A stretch of DNA of 22,497 bases, taken from positions 1-22,497 of the IMG/VR virus record IMGVR_UViG_3300030450_000555. The stretch is one strand, 5' to 3'. The translations under genes were made by a program, and so were the position numbers. Each line of letters begins with the position of its first letter. Within the stretch, counting starts at the first letter, position 1. This document shows positions 8,429-21,917 of the stretch, piece by piece. The notes under the pieces are model-generated. The model did no database searches and was not told where the DNA came from. It worked only from the letters and a program-made list of their open reading frames with translations. The DNA comes from a virus.

Positions 8429-9018
8429 CCATTCCTATTGAGCAGTTACAAAAATTAGAAAATATTTCAATAATTGAATTATTCCAGATAAATTTAGTAT
8501 CTGGGCTGCATTACAGTTCAACTGATACAACTGCAACTACTCTTTATAGATTTCACAATGGGACAAATGAAATCAGCACAGACATCAAATGGCAAGATAA
8601 CACTTATACAGCAATTGCTTGTGATATAGATGGTTTTGAAACAGGTGATAACACAGTTATGGCAAGACCGACAATTTCTTTTGCTAATACAGTCGGCAAT
8701 ATTTCCACAATTTTAGAGTTAGTAAATCAAATAACACCTTTTAATGATTTACAAAAAGCTGAAGTAGTCAGAATAAGAACAATGGCTCGTTTTTTAGATG
8801 CTGATAACTTTTCAAACAATACAAATCCCTTTGGAACACCTAACCCTAATATGGAATTAGAACAACATAAATATCAAATAAATAAAAAAATAACTGAAAA
8901 TAATGAAATATGTGCTTTTGAATTAGTGAATACAATAGATTTTGAAGATCTGTTTTTACCGAGAAAGCAAATAACAAAAGACAGATTTCCAGCTACAGGT
9001 ACTTTTGTGTTTGTATGA
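8425..9018 (+). CDS. minor tail protein, lambda gpL-like, short C terminus
   Basis: The 197-residue protein has the gpL-type core: IIELFQINLVSGLHYSSTD at the start, a strand block YRFHNGTNEISTDIKWQDNT (residues ~42-61), DIDGFETGDNT, and a KYQINKKITENNEICAFELV to DFEDLFLPRKQI region. In lambda, gpL is about 232 residues and carries a C-terminal cysteine-rich iron-sulphur region. Here the chain ends shortly after the LPRKQI segment, with only two cysteines in the whole protein, so that cluster-binding part is missing. Strong ribosome binding site (GAGGAGGT) upstream; ATGA overlap with the upstream gene. It should form part of the tail tip. Confidence 0.85.
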   Translation: MTIPIEQLQKLENISIIELFQINLVSGLHYSSTDTTATTLYRFHNGTNEISTDIKWQDNTYTAIACDIDGFETGDNTVMARPTISFANTVGNISTILELVNQITPFNDLQKAEVVRIRTMARFLDADNFSNNTNPFGTPNPNMELEQHKYQINKKITENNEICAFELVNTIDFEDLFLPRKQITKDRFPATGTFVFV

Positions 9019-9353
9019 CTTGGAAAGAAGATGCTAAAAAACATTTTATAGATTGTCAGCCAGCTGAGGGTTGTGGTTTTTTAGTTGAAAGAGGAGGAAA
9101 TGAATTTTTTTATCCTTGTAAAAATATAGTTTCTCATGTAGAAGAAGAGGTGACTTTTGCTATAGATCCTTTAGATTATGCAGCTTGTGAAGATACTGGT
9201 GCTGACATACTTGCAATTATTCACTCTCATGTAGAAGGCAATGCCGACCCATCTGAAGCTGATATTAAAAATTGCAATTTATACATGACGGATTGGTATA
9301 TTTATTCTATACAAGATGATAACTGGTGTTTTTTGGAGACAGATTATGATTAG
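9015..9353 (+). CDS. JAMM/MPN metallopeptidase-like tail-tip protein (lambda gpK N-terminal half)
   Basis: The 112-residue protein carries a complete JAMM zinc motif: Glu18 (in PAEGCGFLVERG), then HSH at residues 70-72, seven residues, Ser80 and Asp83 (HSHVEGNADPSEAD). In lambda gpK such a domain is joined to an NlpC/P60 peptidoglycan hydrolase domain. Here the gene stops after the JAMM part, so the second domain is absent. JAMM enzymes cut isopeptide or peptide bonds, and in tail tips the substrate is not known. The gene overlaps the upstream L-like gene (ATGA) and the downstream I-like gene, giving L-K-I order. The catalytic residues are intact. Confidence 0.88.
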   Translation: MTWKEDAKKHFIDCQPAEGCGFLVERGGNEFFYPCKNIVSHVEEEVTFAIDPLDYAACEDTGADILAIIHSHVEGNADPSEADIKNCNLYMTDWYIYSIQDDNWCFLETDYD

Positions 9354-13623: not shown

Positions 13624-14868
13624 ATGCCTAGTAAACCAGCCGATTATGAGATTGCTAACGATACAGGAGCTAATGTTCGTACTGATTTAAATAATGTTTT
13701 TAATGCTATACAAATAAACAACGGATACGGAAGTGAGCCTACAACTAAACTTGGCTTTATGTGGTATGCCGATACCAGTTCAAATAAGATGAGTTTTTAT
13801 AAGGCTACTCCAAGTGACGGAAGAATATCTTTTATTCATTTAGCAAACGGAAATTTCTTTGGCCCTGACGGAACTGTAAGCGATCCTTCCTACACTTTTG
13901 AAAATCAATCAAGCACTGGTTTTTACAAAGCAGGAACTAATATTATAGGAATATCAAATAATTCTGTTTCTATGGCAGAATTAAGAACAGACAGAGCTAT
14001 TTTTAAGGGAGTCCTTGATGTTATTCCAAATTCAGGTGGAGCAAATTTAAATGTACAAACAAATGGTGTAAATGACCAAGATGCAAATATTAGACTTGTT
14101 GCTGATACATCATTTACTACTGCTGGTTTTTCAATTACAAGAAAAGCATCAAATACAGGAAGTACAGAGTTAGTGCATAGAGGCACAGGAGATTTAGTAA
14201 TAGACACTGATGAAGCTGCTGATATGGTGTTCAAGACAGACAGCACCATGCGACTTTCGTTAATGGGTTCTGGAACAGAGGAAGGATCTTTAATTTCACA
14301 CGATCACACAAGAAACACTTTAGATACTGCTGGTTTTGCTTTTGTTAATACATCAAATGACAATGGTGCTGGATTTGAAATGTTATCTCTTGTTAAAAGC
14401 GGAAATGCTACTGGTGCAGCCTTATTTATAAATAGGCTTGCATCTGCTGGACTTCCTGATACAGGAAGTACAGGTAGATTAGTTGAATTTGAATATAATG
14501 GTACTAATGTTGGCAGTATTACCACTAACGGAAGTACCACAGCTTTTAACACTGGTTCTGATTATAGATTAAAAGAAAATATTGTTGATTTGACTGATGG
14601 CATTACTAGGTTAAAAACCTTAAAACCATGTAGATTTAATTTCAAAACTAATACAACAAAAATAGTTGATGGATTTTTAGCACATGAAGTAACAACAGTC
14701 CCCGAAGCTGTGACCGGTGTGAAAGATGATGTGGATAGTAATGGTAATCCTGTTTATCAACAAATAGATCAATCAAAATTAGTTCCATTATTAACTGCTG
14801 CACTTCAAGAAGCTATAGTTAAAATAGAAACATTAGAAACAAAAGTCGCTGCACTTGAGGCAAGTTAA
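13624..14868 (+). CDS. tail fibre with C-terminal S74 intramolecular chaperone
   Basis: The 414-residue fibre begins MPSKPADYEIANDTGANVRT with an adaptor region (about 1-110) containing LGFMWYADTSSNKMSFYK, a pattern I recall from cyanophage fibres. A Ser/Thr/Gly-rich shaft follows. Residues 312-414 form an S74 (endosialidase-type) chaperone domain: Ser312 and Lys317 in the SDYRLKENI motif are the expected catalytic dyad, and the end is a coiled coil (ALQEAIVKIETLETKVAALE). The domain helps the fibre trimerise and then cuts itself off, so the mature fibre would be about 311 residues. It is the first gene after J and overlaps the next gene by one base. A TATAAT at about 13597 just upstream has no good -35 box. 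Confidence 0.85.
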   Translation: MPSKPADYEIANDTGANVRTDLNNVFNAIQINNGYGSEPTTKLGFMWYADTSSNKMSFYKATPSDGRISFIHLANGNFFGPDGTVSDPSYTFENQSSTGFYKAGTNIIGISNNSVSMAELRTDRAIFKGVLDVIPNSGGANLNVQTNGVNDQDANIRLVADTSFTTAGFSITRKASNTGSTELVHRGTGDLVIDTDEAADMVFKTDSTMRLSLMGSGTEEGSLISHDHTRNTLDTAGFAFVNTSNDNGAGFEMLSLVKSGNATGAALFINRLASAGLPDTGSTGRLVEFEYNGTNVGSITTNGSTTAFNTGSDYRLKENIVDLTDGITRLKTLKPCRFNFKTNTTKIVDGFLAHEVTTVPEAVTGVKDDVDSNGNPVYQQIDQSKLVPLLTAALQEAIVKIETLETKVAALEAS

Positions 14869-16860: not shown

Positions 16861-16877
16861 AGGAGGTAAATCTTTTG
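16861..16877 (+). promoter_or_regulatory. strong Shine-Dalgarno deciding a TTG start
   Basis: AGGAGGT at 16861-16867 stands 7 nt before TTG 16875. No ATG or GTG lies at a suitable distance, and TTG gives the family N terminus (M)SNTIKLKRG. This is among the closest ribosome binding site matches in the window and probably compensates for the weak start codon. Confidence 0.8.
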
Positions 16878-18590
16878 TCTAATACTATTAAACTTAAGAG
16901 AGGTACAAGCACACCTACTTCTAGCGATATTGTTGATGGCGAAGTTGCTATTGATAAATCAGCACAGAAATTATACGTAAATGATGGTGGAACGATAAAA
17001 GAAATTGGTGGAGGGGGTGGTGTAAGTGATGGAGATAAAGGTGATATAACTGTTAGTTCCTCTGGTGCAACTTGGACTATTGATAGTGGAGTTGTAACAT
17101 CAGCCAAGATAGCAGATGGAGCAATTGTTAATGCTGATATAAATGCAAGTGCAGCGATAGATGGATCAAAAATCTCACCAGCTTTTACATCAGACATTAC
17201 AGGAACAGGAAATTTTACCCTTACATCAACTGACGCTGGTAGTTCTGCGGCCCCAGAATTGGAGTTATATAGAAATAGTGCTTCTCCAGCAGATGCGGAT
17301 TACTTAGGTCAACTTAAATTTACTGGCGAAAGTGATGACGGTAGCAAAGAAGTTTATGCAAAGATCACAGGAAAGATAGATGATGCAAGTTCTGGGACAG
17401 AAGATGGAATTATCGAATTTGCACATAGAAAAGCTGGTTCAAATGTTATTACAGGAAGATTTAAAAGTACAGAATTACAATTATTAAACGGTACAAATTT
17501 AGATGTTGATGGAACTTGTACAGCTACTACTTTCAGCGGATCGGGGGCTTCTTTAACTAGCTTGCCTTCGGGTCAATTAACTGGAGCATTACCAGCTATA
17601 GATGGTTCTAACTTAACAGGAATATCAGGTGGTTTATCCTCAGACGCACAACAAAACACATTAGGAGGTACTGCTGCTGGAGAGGATTTAAACGGTACTG
17701 CTGATCAAAATACATTTTTTGGACAAAATAGTGGTCGGAATACAACTTCTGGTACAAGAAATTCAGCTTTTGGTGCTTATTCTCTTGACACAAACACTAC
17801 AGGTTTAAGAAATGCTGTTTTTGGCAATAATGCTGGATATAGCCTTACTACAGCAAGCTACAATACCTATTTGGGGACAATGGCTGGTCAGTTAGGAACA
17901 ACTGGTGGCAACAATACGGCGGTAGGATATAAAGCATCATCAGCAGGTACTACAGCAGCAAATGGAGTAGCAGTGGGATATGAAGCTCTTACTTCATGTA
18001 CAACAGCAAATGACAATACTGCAATAGGTTATAAAGCTGGAACTGTAATTACTACTGGTGCTGGTAACGTTTGTGTCGGTGTTGAAACTGGACTATCAAT
18101 CACTACTGGAAGTACAAACACCTGTGTAGGACAGGATGCTGGTAATACATTAACTACTGGTTCAAATAATACTTGTCTGGGAAATAACGCTGTGCCTAGT
18201 GCAGCAGACGTTTCAAATGAAATTACTTTAGGTGATAGCAATATTACCTCCTTGCGTTGTCAGGTTCAAACTATTAGTTCTCTATCTGACGCAAGAGACA
18301 AAACAGATATTGTTGATTCACCAGATGGATTAGAACTTATTAATTTGCTTAGACCTAGAAAATTTACATGGGCAATGCGTGAAGAAAGTGAAAATAATGG
18401 TAGAACAGAACTCGGTTTTATAGCACAGGAATTAGATGAAGCATTAGGTGATAAAAACGATTATATACACGCTGTAAATAAAAATAACCCAAATAAATTA
18501 GAGGCTTCTTACGGTAAACTTATACCTATTCTTGTCAAAGCGATCCAAGAGCTTACAATAGAGGTTGAAACATTAAAATCAAATGGCTGA
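16875..18590 (+). CDS. tail fibre with YadA-like head repeats and S74 chaperone (TTG start)
   Basis: The 571-residue fibre begins (M)SNTIKLKRGTSTPTSS and DGEVAIDKSAQKLYVNDGG, an N-terminal attachment module like that of the preceding fibre. Residues about 110-210 form a beta domain. Residues about 255-440 are 14-16-residue repeats of the type NTAVGYKA...TTG, which resemble the trimeric left-handed beta-roll of YadA-type adhesins. Residues 471-571 are an S74 chaperone domain with Ser471 and Lys476 (SDARDKTD) as the expected cleavage dyad and a helical end. The mature fibre would be about 470 residues. Translation starts at TTG with a strong ribosome binding site. It probably binds the cell surface; the target is not predictable. 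Confidence 0.88.
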   Translation: MSNTIKLKRGTSTPTSSDIVDGEVAIDKSAQKLYVNDGGTIKEIGGGGGVSDGDKGDITVSSSGATWTIDSGVVTSAKIADGAIVNADINASAAIDGSKISPAFTSDITGTGNFTLTSTDAGSSAAPELELYRNSASPADADYLGQLKFTGESDDGSKEVYAKITGKIDDASSGTEDGIIEFAHRKAGSNVITGRFKSTELQLLNGTNLDVDGTCTATTFSGSGASLTSLPSGQLTGALPAIDGSNLTGISGGLSSDAQQNTLGGTAAGEDLNGTADQNTFFGQNSGRNTTSGTRNSAFGAYSLDTNTTGLRNAVFGNNAGYSLTTASYNTYLGTMAGQLGTTGGNNTAVGYKASSAGTTAANGVAVGYEALTSCTTANDNTAIGYKAGTVITTGAGNVCVGVETGLSITTGSTNTCVGQDAGNTLTTGSNNTCLGNNAVPSAADVSNEITLGDSNITSLRCQVQTISSLSDARDKTDIVDSPDGLELINLLRPRKFTWAMREESENNGRTELGFIAQELDEALGDKNDYIHAVNKNNPNKLEASYGKLIPILVKAIQELTIEVETLKSNG

Positions 18591-18831
18591 ACGTACCGCA
18601 GAAGAAGTTGCCACAATTTTCAGACTTGCTGGAGATAGCGTAACTCTTATCAATCAACTTGCTGCCTTATCTTCTCTAACAGATGAGCAGAAAGATACGA
18701 TTAAAAGAAACGTAGAACATCTTGAAATTATCAAAGCCTATAAAAAGGAGGATAATACTACTTCTATCTGGACAACAGAGGACTTTACTGCACAAGATGC
18801 TGCTGTTACACTAGGTAAAACAAAGTATTAA
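18583..18831 (+). CDS. small conserved cyanophage-type protein (82 aa)
   Basis: The 82-residue protein is helical for the first 55 residues (AEEVATIFRLAGDSVTLINQ; DTIKRNVEHLEIIKAYKK) and ends with TSIWTTEDFTAQDAAVTLGK. I recall small proteins with the pattern 'vkrNv.HLE..ka.k..dgtt.iwt.eDft..d.ai..G' next to fibre genes in many cyanophages, without known function. It overlaps the S74 fibre by 8 nt, so it is co-translated. It could be a fibre assembly chaperone or a fibre-associated part. Both ideas are inference from position only. Confidence 0.7.
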   Translation: MAERTAEEVATIFRLAGDSVTLINQLAALSSLTDEQKDTIKRNVEHLEIIKAYKKEDNTTSIWTTEDFTAQDAAVTLGKTKY

Positions 18832-19207: not shown

Positions 19208-19429
19208 ATGCTAAACCGCATCTGTCAAATTTTGAGTATTGTTTCATTTGTAATGGTAGCTTCTATGAGTGCAGGGGCATTTGTTACTTACAGATTTGTT
19301 ACGTCAGAGCAATTTAAAAGCCAAGTTATGAATCAGATACTTTCTGAAGTTAGTGGGTCTATGGGAAAAGTTTTAGATAAACAACTTCCAAAATCAACAG
19401 GTGTATCTATTCCTTTTAATGGAAATTAG
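19208..19429 (+). CDS. small membrane-anchored protein (73 aa)
   Basis: The 73-residue protein has one N-terminal hydrophobic segment (about 7-30: QILSIVSFVMVASMSAGAFV) behind a short basic start (MLNR), followed by a helical tail (EQFKSQVMNQILSEVSGSMG) and SIPFNGN. It looks like a signal-anchored inner-membrane protein with the tail outside, or an uncleaved exported protein. I remember similar 'MLNRI.QI...VSF..' proteins in cyanomyoviruses. It is the first gene after the putative promoter and overlaps the next gene. Holin or spanin-like roles are possible but unsupported. No ribosome binding site is seen. Confidence 0.7.
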   Translation: MLNRICQILSIVSFVMVASMSAGAFVTYRFVTSEQFKSQVMNQILSEVSGSMGKVLDKQLPKSTGVSIPFNGN

Positions 19430-20063
19430 AGAAATAAAAATAAATGAATTAGTTGTTCCTAAAATTAAAGTTTATGAACCATTAATTCCACGCATCAAAA
19501 AAGTACCAAAATTAATTGTTGATTATCCAGCCTGTATAAAAGTTCATAGAAATAATTTAGCAACACAGATTGATATTGATGAAAATGGCACAGTTATTGA
19601 GTGCGGTTTACAAGTGCCGAGTTTTGAGCCACTAGATTACACTCCTATGTACTTCAACCCAACATACTCATCTTTGACTAACAAAGCAGAACAAGAACCA
19701 GAAATTAAATCAGAAGAACAAAAAGTTGCAAGAAAGAAAAAAGAAGAAGACCTTTATGAACCTTGCCCACCTTTAAATCCTCAATTTATGAAAGGTGATT
19801 ACAGAAATGATAAAAGGCTGTTCAGATTTGATTCATACGAAAGAATAGAAATAGATGGAGTTATTGAGTGTGTCGAAAATTGGGAAAAAGTACCATTCAG
19901 AGAGAGTTTTATTGGTACGCCTCAAACTCTTATTTCAACTACTTTGCTCGGTGTGGTTGCTGGTGGCTCTGCGCTTTTGGCTCCTTTGATAAAAAAGCTA
20001 ATTTCTACAATATTTAAACAACTAAAGAAAAAGATCTCAAAAGAAGAAAAAGACAAGATATAA
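19419..20063 (+). CDS. conserved cyanophage-type protein with C-terminal membrane helix (214 aa)
   Basis: I choose ATG 19419, which overlaps the upstream stop and yields MEIREIKINELVVPKIKVYE; a GTG at 19401 would add six residues. The first 90 residues are Pro/Val/Ile-rich extended sequence. The middle (about 93-120) is a Lys/Glu-rich linker, then come two Cys-containing parts (YEPCPPLNPQFMKGDYRND; IECVENWEKVPF). Near residues 170-190 is a hydrophobic helix (TLISTTLLGVVAGGSALLAP), followed by a very basic tail (KQLKKKISKEEKDK). The general design, Pro-rich start, late helix and basic end, is one I recall from T4-like cyanophages, function unknown. Genes of this kind probably act at the cell envelope. 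Confidence 0.7.
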   Translation: MEIREIKINELVVPKIKVYEPLIPRIKKVPKLIVDYPACIKVHRNNLATQIDIDENGTVIECGLQVPSFEPLDYTPMYFNPTYSSLTNKAEQEPEIKSEEQKVARKKKEEDLYEPCPPLNPQFMKGDYRNDKRLFRFDSYERIEIDGVIECVENWEKVPFRESFIGTPQTLISTTLLGVVAGGSALLAPLIKKLISTIFKQLKKKISKEEKDKI

Positions 20064-20084: not shown

Positions 20085-20121
20085 AGCCCCTTACAGGCGA
20101 TTCTGAAGGGGCTATTTTTTT
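20085..20121. terminator. rho-independent terminator between convergent operons
   Basis: AGCCCCTT (20085-20092) and AAGGGGCT (20106-20113) form an 8-bp perfect stem around a 13-nt loop, followed by A and seven T on the plus strand. It ends the plus operon. The minus strand also carries A/T-rich flanks (its downstream run is GTAAAAATG), so the hairpin may work weakly in both directions. The minus-strand stop codon lies inside the stem. Confidence 0.85.
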
Positions 20122-20783
20122 GTTTTTACGTCAATTTTGTGTGAGTGCGGTATAACTTGACCCATCTTTTCAGTAACTATGACATCAGAGCAAATAGAAT
20201 GATATGGGCTTTTAGGGTGGTATTGGATTCCAGCGATTTTAAGTTCACCGCAATTCTTTAATCTTGCTAATTCATAGTCTAATTTTTTATTATTTAATAT
20301 TTGATTCTGTATTTTCTCCTGTGTTGTAGCTGATCGTAAACAGGCATCTTGATATGCAGATCCTAAAGGAATAGAAAACGTAGCTGCTATTCCAAAATTT
20401 ATTCCTAAATTGTCTTTGTTTGCAGAATAGTTTTCTTGGTGATATAAAATCTCACCAGCGTTGGTCAAATTCCCTTGTTCGTCAGTTGCTAAATTATATA
20501 CAGGCGTTGTGTAGCGTAAGTCTTGAGGACGTTTTTGATTGAACGTGGTAGTTACAAACGGAGAGATAGTGAGCATTGAGTTTTGGCAAACTACACCACC
20601 GCCAAATTGAGACTCAATGAGATTGCCTTGTAAGACTTGCACCGCCTGATTGGAAACGCTTGATGACGACTGAGCTACGGGCGCTGCGGTTGATGAAGAA
20701 TTTGCTAAAATTGGCTTATTTATGAGACAAGTAAGACTTGTTATTGCGAGAATACTGTAGTGGTTTCTGTGACGCTTTCTGAT
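20112..20783 (-). CDS. exported Cys-containing cyanophage-type protein, start unresolved
   Basis: The frame ends at TAG 20114-20112. Its body (STAAPVAQSSSSVSNQAVQV; GGGVVCQNSMLTISPF; LARLKNCGELKIAGIQYHPK; SICSDVIVTEK) matches a family I recall from cyanophages. An N-terminal signal peptide is visible: basic RKRHRNHYS, hydrophobic ILAITSLTCLI, then NKPILA before Asn-Ser-Ser. Four cysteines in the mature part suggest disulphides in the periplasm. The only canonical start in frame is ATG 20912, which overlaps the upstream gene by 172 nt and would bury the signal peptide. I give 20783 (an ATC) as the N-terminal limit of the signal. ATT 20753 and ATA 20744 are other candidates. It is the last gene of the operon. 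Confidence 0.65.
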   Translation of the reverse strand: MRKRHRNHYSILAITSLTCLINKPILANSSSTAAPVAQSSSSVSNQAVQVLQGNLIESQFGGGVVCQNSMLTISPFVTTTFNQKRPQDLRYTTPVYNLATDEQGNLTNAGEILYHQENYSANKDNLGINFGIAATFSIPLGSAYQDACLRSATTQEKIQNQILNNKKLDYELARLKNCGELKIAGIQYHPKSPYHSICSDVIVTEKMGQVIPHSHKIDVKTKK

Positions 20784-21160
20784 GTTATTTGTCTTGTTAC
20801 GTCTGTAATTCTGCTTACTGAGGGCTGTTTGTAAACCTCTGTAAATTGAAAGGCTGCTCCATTTGTTGTTAGTGAAAAGTTTGCTTTGTTGTCTAGATCT
20901 ACTTGTTTCCATGTATAAGTTTCACCGTTCAAAGTGGTTTGTAAGTCAGTATATTTAGGACTGATACTACCGTCAGCACTGACACCCGAACCTGTAACGC
21001 TGTAAGTAGATCCTGAAAACTCCACTGTTTTAATCTGTTCGTTGATATTAGTAGTTGTTCTTGTGGTGCTAAAACTCGAGCCTTGACTGAAATTTGGGAC
21101 GACAGGGATTGCATACAGTGGGTTAGATATAAATAAAATTAATAAACCTAACCATTTCAT
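20741..21160 (-). CDS. exported beta-rich protein, paralogue of the upstream gene (139 aa)
   Basis: The 139-residue protein has a signal peptide (residues 1-17, MKWLGLLILFISNPLYA) with cleavage before IPVVPNF. The mature part is Ser/Thr-rich beta sequence with STYSVTGS at 51-58, YTWKQVDLDNKANFSLTT around 82-99, and GAAFQFTE at 101-108. It ends in SESVTETTTVFSQ. I recall similar proteins in cyanomyoviruses. Two of its motifs also appear in the 21160-21669 protein, so the pair looks like an ancient duplication. The ATG overlaps the upstream stop by one base (TAATG). Periplasmic or outer-surface location is inferred, and function is unknown. Confidence 0.75.
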   Translation of the reverse strand: MKWLGLLILFISNPLYAIPVVPNFSQGSSFSTTRTTTNINEQIKTVEFSGSTYSVTGSGVSADGSISPKYTDLQTTLNGETYTWKQVDLDNKANFSLTTNGAAFQFTEVYKQPSVSRITDVTRQITSESVTETTTVFSQ

Positions 21161-21669
21161 TAATCTAATATTGAAAGTTCTGTTACAAATTGGCCTATAG
21201 CAGTAGTACCAGCACCACCAGCCGTCACCGTTGTTAGCCCTGCACTTGTTACAGTACCAGCTAAGTTTCCAGCAACCCCACCAGAATAACTTGTTGTCTT
21301 ACTAAAAACAGGCAGATCCGCAATAATCCCCGAAGCGACATCTACTCCAGAGCCGACTGTATATGCGGCATCACCAGAAATAAATGACTCTTGGAAAGAA
21401 AATGCACTTCCCGCAGTATTAACGTCATAGGTACCAGCATCTAATGTGGCTGCGGCTGTAGCACTTGCTGGTGCAACTAACTTTCCGAAGTGATCGTCAG
21501 CGGATGCAACTTTTATATTTGAACCTGAAACACTATATGTACTAGCACCACGTTCAGCAACGGTGTAAGCACCGTCAACAGTAAGTTGAGTCGAACTGGT
21601 CATTTTGTGAATCATGTCAGCTTGCGCCGCTGGCATAAGTAACGCTGCAAGAATTAAAAACTTTTTCAT
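21160..21669 (-). CDS. exported Ala/Thr/Gly-rich protein (169 aa)
   Basis: A clear signal peptide (MKKFLILAALLMPAAQA, residues 1-17) with an AxA-type cleavage site precedes DMIHKM. The mature part contains QLTVDGAYTVAERGASTYSV with STYSVSGS at 43-50, LDAGTYDVNT and GSAFSFQE at 87-94, then an Ala/Gly/Thr-rich end with GQFVTELSILD. It is a low-complexity beta protein without cysteine. I know closely similar sequences from T4-like cyanophages. The ATG overlaps the upstream TGA (ATGA). Base composition is less AT-rich than in the tail genes (31 of 60 at 21181-21240 are G or C). Role unknown; envelope or outer-membrane action is likely. Confidence 0.8.
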   Translation of the reverse strand: MKKFLILAALLMPAAQADMIHKMTSSTQLTVDGAYTVAERGASTYSVSGSNIKVASADDHFGKLVAPASATAAATLDAGTYDVNTAGSAFSFQESFISGDAAYTVGSGVDVASGIIADLPVFSKTTSYSGGVAGNLAGTVTSAGLTTVTAGGAGTTAIGQFVTELSILD

Positions 21670-21917
21670 TTGATTCCAGATTTAGTATTCTTATTATCTA
21701 CTATACCGTTTTTATTGTTGTTGCCTTTTTTACCAATACTTAGGCCCAGAGAAGCAGTTGACGCACTGAAGATCGAGGCTATAAAAGTTGGATCAAAGTC
21801 CACAATTTTTTTACCGTCTGGAGGCTCGTAATATGAGAGAGATAACAGCGTTGCGCTCCAAATCAAAATGGAAATTTTAACAATAGTTTCAACTCTACTG
21901 TCTTTTTCTTCTTCCAT
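21666..21917 (-). CDS. small protein with two membrane helices (83 aa)
   Basis: The 83-residue protein has an acidic start (MEEEKDSRVE), a first helix (ETIVKISILIWSATLLSLSY, ~10-29), a loop with YEPPDGKKIVDFDP, a second hydrophobic segment (TFIASIFSASTASLGLSIG, ~44-62) and an Asn/Lys-rich tail. It is the first gene of the minus operon and ends in an ATGA overlap. Size and two-helix hairpin resemble class II holins, but no charged-tail pattern decides this. Similar proteins with 'YE.P......DP.FIA..FSA..AS.G' occur in cyanophages as I recall. A membrane role in the exported-protein module is the safest reading. Confidence 0.7.
   Translation of the reverse strand: MEEEKDSRVETIVKISILIWSATLLSLSYYEPPDGKKIVDFDPTFIASIFSASTASLGLSIGKKGNNNKNGIVDNKNTKSGIK

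Follow-up and report, generated by a model that had tools for sequence, protein, structure and literature searches.

A six-gene cassette of predicted exported and membrane proteins shared by unrelated marine cyanophages, with a long conserved gene overlap and a possible role in late outer-membrane disruption

Six genes in two convergent arms form a cassette that is common to otherwise unrelated marine cyanophages, and the whole set is present in a 22,497-base virus record, the full stretch of DNA analysed here and called the window below. T4-like cyanophages were already known to contain these families and the cassette, whose siphovirus arrangement represents a variant; what is new is its late, exported and dual-coding character. 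The original prediction described an operon of four minus-strand genes between 20112 and 21917, and these four open reading frames are real and lie exactly at the positions given. The unit, however, consists of six genes, since it includes the plus-strand genes p568 and p570 (19208-20063), which converge on the other four. The elements of the cassette are the following:

21666-21917, minus strand: g1, 83 aa; DUF6450 / phrog_21865, phrog_721; T4-GC 218 of cyanophages
21160-21669, minus strand: g2, 169 aa; phrog_564; T4-GC 237; predicted signal peptide and Ser/Thr/Gly-rich beta protein, paralogue of g3
20741-21160, minus strand: g3, 139 aa; DUF6322 / phrog_650; T4-GC 236; predicted signal peptide and beta protein
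20112-20912, minus strand: g4, 266 aa; phrog_848 / phrog_1755; T4-GC 235; start inside g3, long basic n-region, predicted signal peptide and exported domain
20741-20912, minus strand: g3/g4 dual-coding overlap; the last 172 nt of g3 code also, in the -1 frame, for the first ~57 residues of g4, start ATG at 20912
20703-20762, minus strand: hydrophobic core and cleavage region of the g4 signal peptide (ILAITSLTCLINKPILA/NSS), extending past the end of g3
19208-19429, plus strand: p568, 73 aa; phrog_568 ('plasmid stability'); membrane segment at the N-terminus, short tail at the C-terminus; part of the convergent arm
19401-20063, plus strand: p570; phrog_570; T4-GC 234; N-terminal domain rich in proline, followed by a C-terminal membrane segment with a basic tail; ATG at 19419 is the likely start
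20086-20125, plus strand: inverted repeat GCCCCTT...AAGGGGC followed by a T-rich run, read from the sequence; overlaps the end of g4

The junctions of the minus-strand arm were also as predicted, with an ATGA (4-nt overlap) between g1 and g2, a TAATG between g2 and g3, and the g3 stop within g4, giving a 172-nt out-of-frame overlap. Two of the genes matched Pfam families well above the curated cut-offs: g1 matched DUF6450 (PF20048) with 70 bits (cut-off 25), and g3 matched DUF6322 (PF19847) with 83.1 bits (cut-off 30.6). The name of p568 is doubtful, because no plasmid maintenance family in Pfam or NCBIfam was matched and only the PHROG label says so; the protein looks like a small membrane protein. 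The cassette proteins matched no defence family and no NCBIfam family, and the search of solved structures by sequence revealed no homology, with a single match at 0.009 between g2 and a glucanase. The inverted repeat at 20086-20125 is a probable intrinsic terminator of the plus-strand arm; it was absent from the output of a terminator scan that allows loops of up to 8.

The siphovirus context of the window was confirmed by the alignment of its capsid region to the Prochlorococcus siphophages MED4-117, MED4-184 and P-HS2 (76% identity) and by a gene for a lambda-type minor tail protein at 9015-9353. Two tail-fibre-like proteins (13624-14868 and 16875-18590) have similar ends (DYRLKENI and DARDKTDI) that recall the peptidase S74 intramolecular chaperone. 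A small protein is encoded between the tail genes and the cassette (18583-18831), with a GA module (PF01468) match near the cut-off (21.2 bits vs 24).

To describe the distribution of the cassette, profile HMMs were built for the six families, and approximately 240 environmental loci from three scans (some 250 in the clustering count) were typed as siphovirus or myovirus by their neighbouring genes. In the loci with enough flanking sequence, each of the six genes was present in 24-25 of the 25 siphovirus-labelled and in 37-38 of the 38 myovirus-labelled loci, the labels resting on neighbours on short contigs and being rough for some loci. Co-occurrence is thus all-or-none, with no scattered singletons, and the module is indeed present in siphoviruses. 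The commonest siphovirus order was g1 g2 g3 g4 facing p570 p568 (59/96), vs g2 g3 g4 facing p570 p568 g1 in myoviruses (61/108), so that g1 switches arms between the two types. The cassette families occur in hundreds of cyanophage records, in agreement with their assignment to T4-like cyanomyoviruses in the original prediction; the T4-like arrangement has g2-g3-g4 converging on an arm that contains p570 and usually also p568 and g1. The podophage P-RSP2 has a reduced version, with g1, g4, a single gene of the g2/g3 type and a convergent gene that is similar to p570 at its C-terminus, as judged by eye. Among the siphophages, the cassette of MED4-117 and MED4-184 (P-HS2) has the same six genes in matching order and orientation, but the g4 proteins are only ~30% identical to that of the window. 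None of the six genes was found in the T4-like phage S-SZBM1. This phage has a gene annotated as rare lipoprotein A (S-SZBM1_29, locus L270, 9327-9629), possibly a different envelope gene; a lipobox scan of S-SZBM1 found no lipobox despite this annotation.

Part of this module had been described before. In Sullivan et al. 2010 (PMC3037559), T4-GCs 218, 219, 234, 235 and 237 and a 'plasmid stability' gene are presented as a clustered, possibly mobile cassette of T4-like cyanophages, hypothetical and with no function given, and S-PM2 is reported to lack it. According to the numbers in the S-ShM2 record and our HMM matches, 218 corresponds to g1, 234 to p570, 235 to g4, 236 to g3 and 237 to g2; in this phage, p568 lies ~30 kb away from the remaining cassette genes, and no gene numbered 219 was found in the S-ShM2 stretches examined. 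The orthologues of T4-GCs 218 and 234-237 were found clustered, often together with the 'plasmid stability' gene. The cyanomyovirus cluster and the cassette of the window consist of the same gene families plus p568 in convergent arms, and differ in that g1 usually belongs to the p570/p568 arm in the former and leads the exported arm in the siphovirus type. The expectation of a module present in different lineages held for the siphovirus. The module itself is not new, as the T4-like cluster was published in 2010 and MED4-117 and MED4-184 already carry the cassette. The gene overlap and the exported nature of the products are not mentioned in the available part of the 2010 paper, and no paper naming DUF6322 or DUF6450 together with cyanophages was found in the literature collection searched. 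New here are the siphovirus and podovirus versions, the all-or-none co-occurrence, the late promoter upstream of the exported arm and the conserved 165-171-nt overlap. In addition, the doubtful label of p568 weakens the published argument that a 'plasmid stability' protein explains the mobility of the cassette.

Movement of the cassette between unrelated phage types, the exchange of an envelope-directed module suggested by the original prediction, is supported by its presence in unrelated phages. In a g4 tree of 80 confidently labelled sequences, a branch with support 79 separated the 17 siphovirus copies from the myovirus and two podovirus copies. Several branches of the tree are very long. 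As only two label changes are needed in total, the exchange was apparently long ago and seldom. A host origin of the genes was rejected: a scan of 84,980 prokaryote genomes gave 11 matches, on contigs that look viral or mis-binned. Cyanophage-like cassettes were seen in loci L256, L257, L260, L261, L263 and L265, from assemblies labelled Nonlabens, Formosa, Sphingobacteriales, Bacteroidetes, Euryarchaeota and Gammaproteobacteria, and are most likely mis-binned or contaminating phage contigs.

The overlap between g3 and g4 is far beyond chance. The g4 frame was open across the end of g3 in nearly all homologues, and in most loci an ATG precedes the g3 stop by 165 or 171 nt. Expected values were obtained by re-drawing the g3 codons synonymously, with the codon usage of g4 and of the remainder of g3. 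In a first set of loci, the g4 frame was open in 88 of 90 (0.6 expected) and an ATG at -171 was present in 80 (27 expected). Since two of the six search patterns used for this set lay inside the overlap, the test was repeated with loci found by mature-domain patterns, located outside of it, and the frame was open in 136 of 143 loci vs 5.9 expected; the loci are related, and these counts are hence not of independent events. Variation at g3 third positions was nearly equal inside the overlap and upstream (ratio 0.92), which indicates that shared ancestry alone is insufficient to account for the open frame. The same ratio gives no support to a strong amino-acid constraint on the overprinted N-terminus of g4, and suggests that the openness, start and charge of this stretch seem to matter more than its exact sequence. 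The overprinted stretch provides g4 with a basic n-region (median net charge of +11 in 50 residues) ahead of the signal peptide. Shorter overlaps were found in P-RSP2-type podoviruses, and the g4 start of MED4-117 precedes the g3 stop by 138 nt. MED4-184 has an interruption in its g4 frame (L003, 21047-21202), whereas the frame is open in its close relative MED4-117 (L004, 21047-21760); this difference is due either to a genuine mutation or to faulty sequencing of one of the records.

Production of g4 by -1 frameshifting from g3, as a fusion with no start of its own, would agree with the finding that 142 of 143 loci have g4 in the -1 frame of g3, but is very improbable and was rejected as the main reading, because most loci have an in-frame ATG at one of two fixed distances from the g3 stop (165 or 171 nt), which is enriched over chance (80 vs 27 expected), no X-XXY-YYZ slippery heptamer was seen at the end of g3, and a fusion would bury the signal peptide and its cleavage site downstream. 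The 'fused' gene CPXG_00058 of P-RSM6 is not a fusion, but merely the g4 frame extended upstream.

The predicted signal peptides of g2 and g3 and the signal-like N terminus of g4 were recovered across the families: 96% of g2, 78% of g3 and 100% of g4 homologues have an AxA-type site downstream of the hydrophobic core, as counted with a simple heuristic and not with SignalP. As for g1, predicted as a two-helix membrane protein, the first helix is clear and above threshold, whereas the second segment is only weakly hydrophobic; its C-terminus is basic. The membrane segment is N-terminal in p568 and C-terminal in p570, which has no N-terminal signal; the basic tail that follows this segment suggests that the C-terminus of p570 lies inside. 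Four cysteines are invariant among g4 homologues, and four are conserved at ~87% in the N-terminal domain of p570, which would suit an oxidising compartment for both. The g2 and g3 proteins are paralogues (hhalign probability 97.5%, E 6e-12). The g3 model is confident (pLDDT 87) and contains two strands of 24-25 residues, one at each end; its matches to solved structures were not significant (best E 1.6e-3, TM ~0.2-0.3) and included phage collar and upper-tail tubes, oligomeric pores and spore-appendage fibres, while among viral models the matches were to cyanophage relatives and, at a weak level, to the lower collar of a podovirus (E 6e-3). The g4 model, of poor to fair quality (pLDDT 69), shows a beta sheet and a 42-residue helix, with no significant match among solved structures (best E 0.85). 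Neither model gave a significant structural match to oligomeric beta-barrel pore proteins.

Of 80 distinct myovirus loci, 64 had a motif resembling the T4 late promoter no more than 70 nt upstream of g2, vs a background of 1.2% at random positions in the same loci. Late expression of the exported arm is therefore very probable in T4-like phages, a lineage other than that of the window. In the siphovirus, we infer late expression from the position of p568 and p570, which follow the tail genes.

Our best reading of the cassette, unproven and tentative, is that it encodes a late envelope assembly that breaches or rearranges the outer membrane at lysis; among the functions listed in the original prediction, we rank this one first as a hypothesis. 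According to this proposal, g2, g3 and g4 would be exported late in infection and reach the periplasm or outer membrane; there the g2/g3 pair, rich in beta structure, would assemble with g4, which would bear disulfides, and this assembly would work with the three inner-membrane proteins g1, p568 and p570 to breach or rearrange the outer membrane. The more specific proposal, that this is a lysis module of a new type replacing spanins, in which exported beta proteins and a disulfide-bonded partner assemble late in the outer membrane and break it together with three inner-membrane proteins, the export signal of one gene being encoded inside the end of the preceding gene, is more doubtful.

Disruption of the outer membrane at lysis is the task of spanins in other phages. 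The cassette may perform it, given that the phages that carry it have no recognisable spanin gene, and a late, exported and disulfide-rich cassette with three membrane proteins, in spanin-less phages, is a reasonable candidate for the missing step. In 20 phages of Prochlorococcus and Synechococcus, including S-ShM2, S-RSM4, P-HM1/2, P-SSM2/4/7 and Syn9, a survey by Kongari et al. 2018 (PMC6139136) identified no spanin; its authors suggested that the outer membrane is fragile or that the spanins have a different topology, for example an N-out protein anchored by a C-terminal membrane segment and paired with an outer-membrane partner. Our all-frame lipobox scan, which recovered the positive controls lambda Rz1, Bor and T7 gp18.7, detected no lipobox, and hence no candidate spanin lipoprotein, in either the window or P-RSP2; in MED4-184, MED4-117 and S-ShM2 it gave a few doubtful candidates at most. 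The MED4-117 hypothetical proteins that were tested matched no holin, endolysin or spanin family. The association is imperfect, as S-PM2 is spanin-less and is yet reported to lack the cassette, and the lack of a lipobox in the cassette proteins weighs against this reading, as does the lack of an N-terminal signal in p570, which makes translocation of its N-domain uncertain.

Like the two-component spanins (lambda Rz/Rz1, T7 gp18.5/18.7), the cassette is late and envelope-directed and has an out-of-frame overlap and probable periplasmic cysteines, the four invariant ones of the exported g4. In contrast to them, it has no lipoprotein, more components and no detected sequence similarity, and both overlapping products carry signal peptides, neither being an inner-membrane protein. 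Candidates for an inner-membrane partner with a domain in the periplasm are p568, by its N-terminal segment, and p570, by its C-terminal segment and basic tail. The g1 protein is similar to class II holins in its small size, two possible membrane segments and basic tail, but its second segment is weakly hydrophobic, it matches no holin family and no endolysin gene adjoins it.

Two other functions are real rivals to outer-membrane disruption at lysis. The first, which we consider unlikely, is superinfection exclusion or receptor masking, whereby the exported proteins would coat or alter the outer membrane and block adsorption or injection of further phages. The exported and membrane-associated nature of the products would suit such a role, as would the distribution of the cassette, widespread yet wholly absent in some relatives, and the absence from T4-like cyanophages of the r genes, which in T4 act in superinfection and lysis inhibition (PMC2984593). 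On the other hand, exclusion usually acts early, whereas the promoter of the cassette is of the late type, and no defence family was matched. The second, which ranks below exclusion, is a surface or periplasmic fibre or ring made of the g2/g3 beta proteins and anchored by g4 and the membrane proteins, acting in envelope remodelling or non-lytic release. It is suggested by the paralogy of g2 and g3, by the two very long antiparallel strands of the g3 model and by its weak matches to spore-appendage fibres, ring and pore proteins and phage collar tubes; these matches are, however, non-significant, and long hairpins easily match such proteins.

An improbable alternative is that the products are packaged in or attached to the virion and act at entry. 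Late expression and the location of p568 and p570 after the tail genes of the siphovirus would fit virion proteins, but cleavable signal peptides argue against assembly in the cytoplasm, and no solved virion chain was matched. Moreover, structural genes of S-ShM2 bear the note 'similar to Synechococcus phage S-SM1 protein', which appears to mark S-SM1 virion proteins, and no cassette gene is so noted. Virion proteomics of S-SZBM1 is uninformative in this respect because this phage lacks the cassette.

The function of the cassette bears on how marine cyanophages breach the outer membrane of their hosts, as the 2018 survey lists 20 phages of Prochlorococcus and Synechococcus with no identifiable spanin. 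If outer-membrane disruption proves not to be the function, there would still be a late, exported, all-or-none cassette common to three phage morphotypes, and a long conserved overlapping gene pair. If it proves correct, the last step of one of the commonest lysis events in the ocean would become testable gene by gene.
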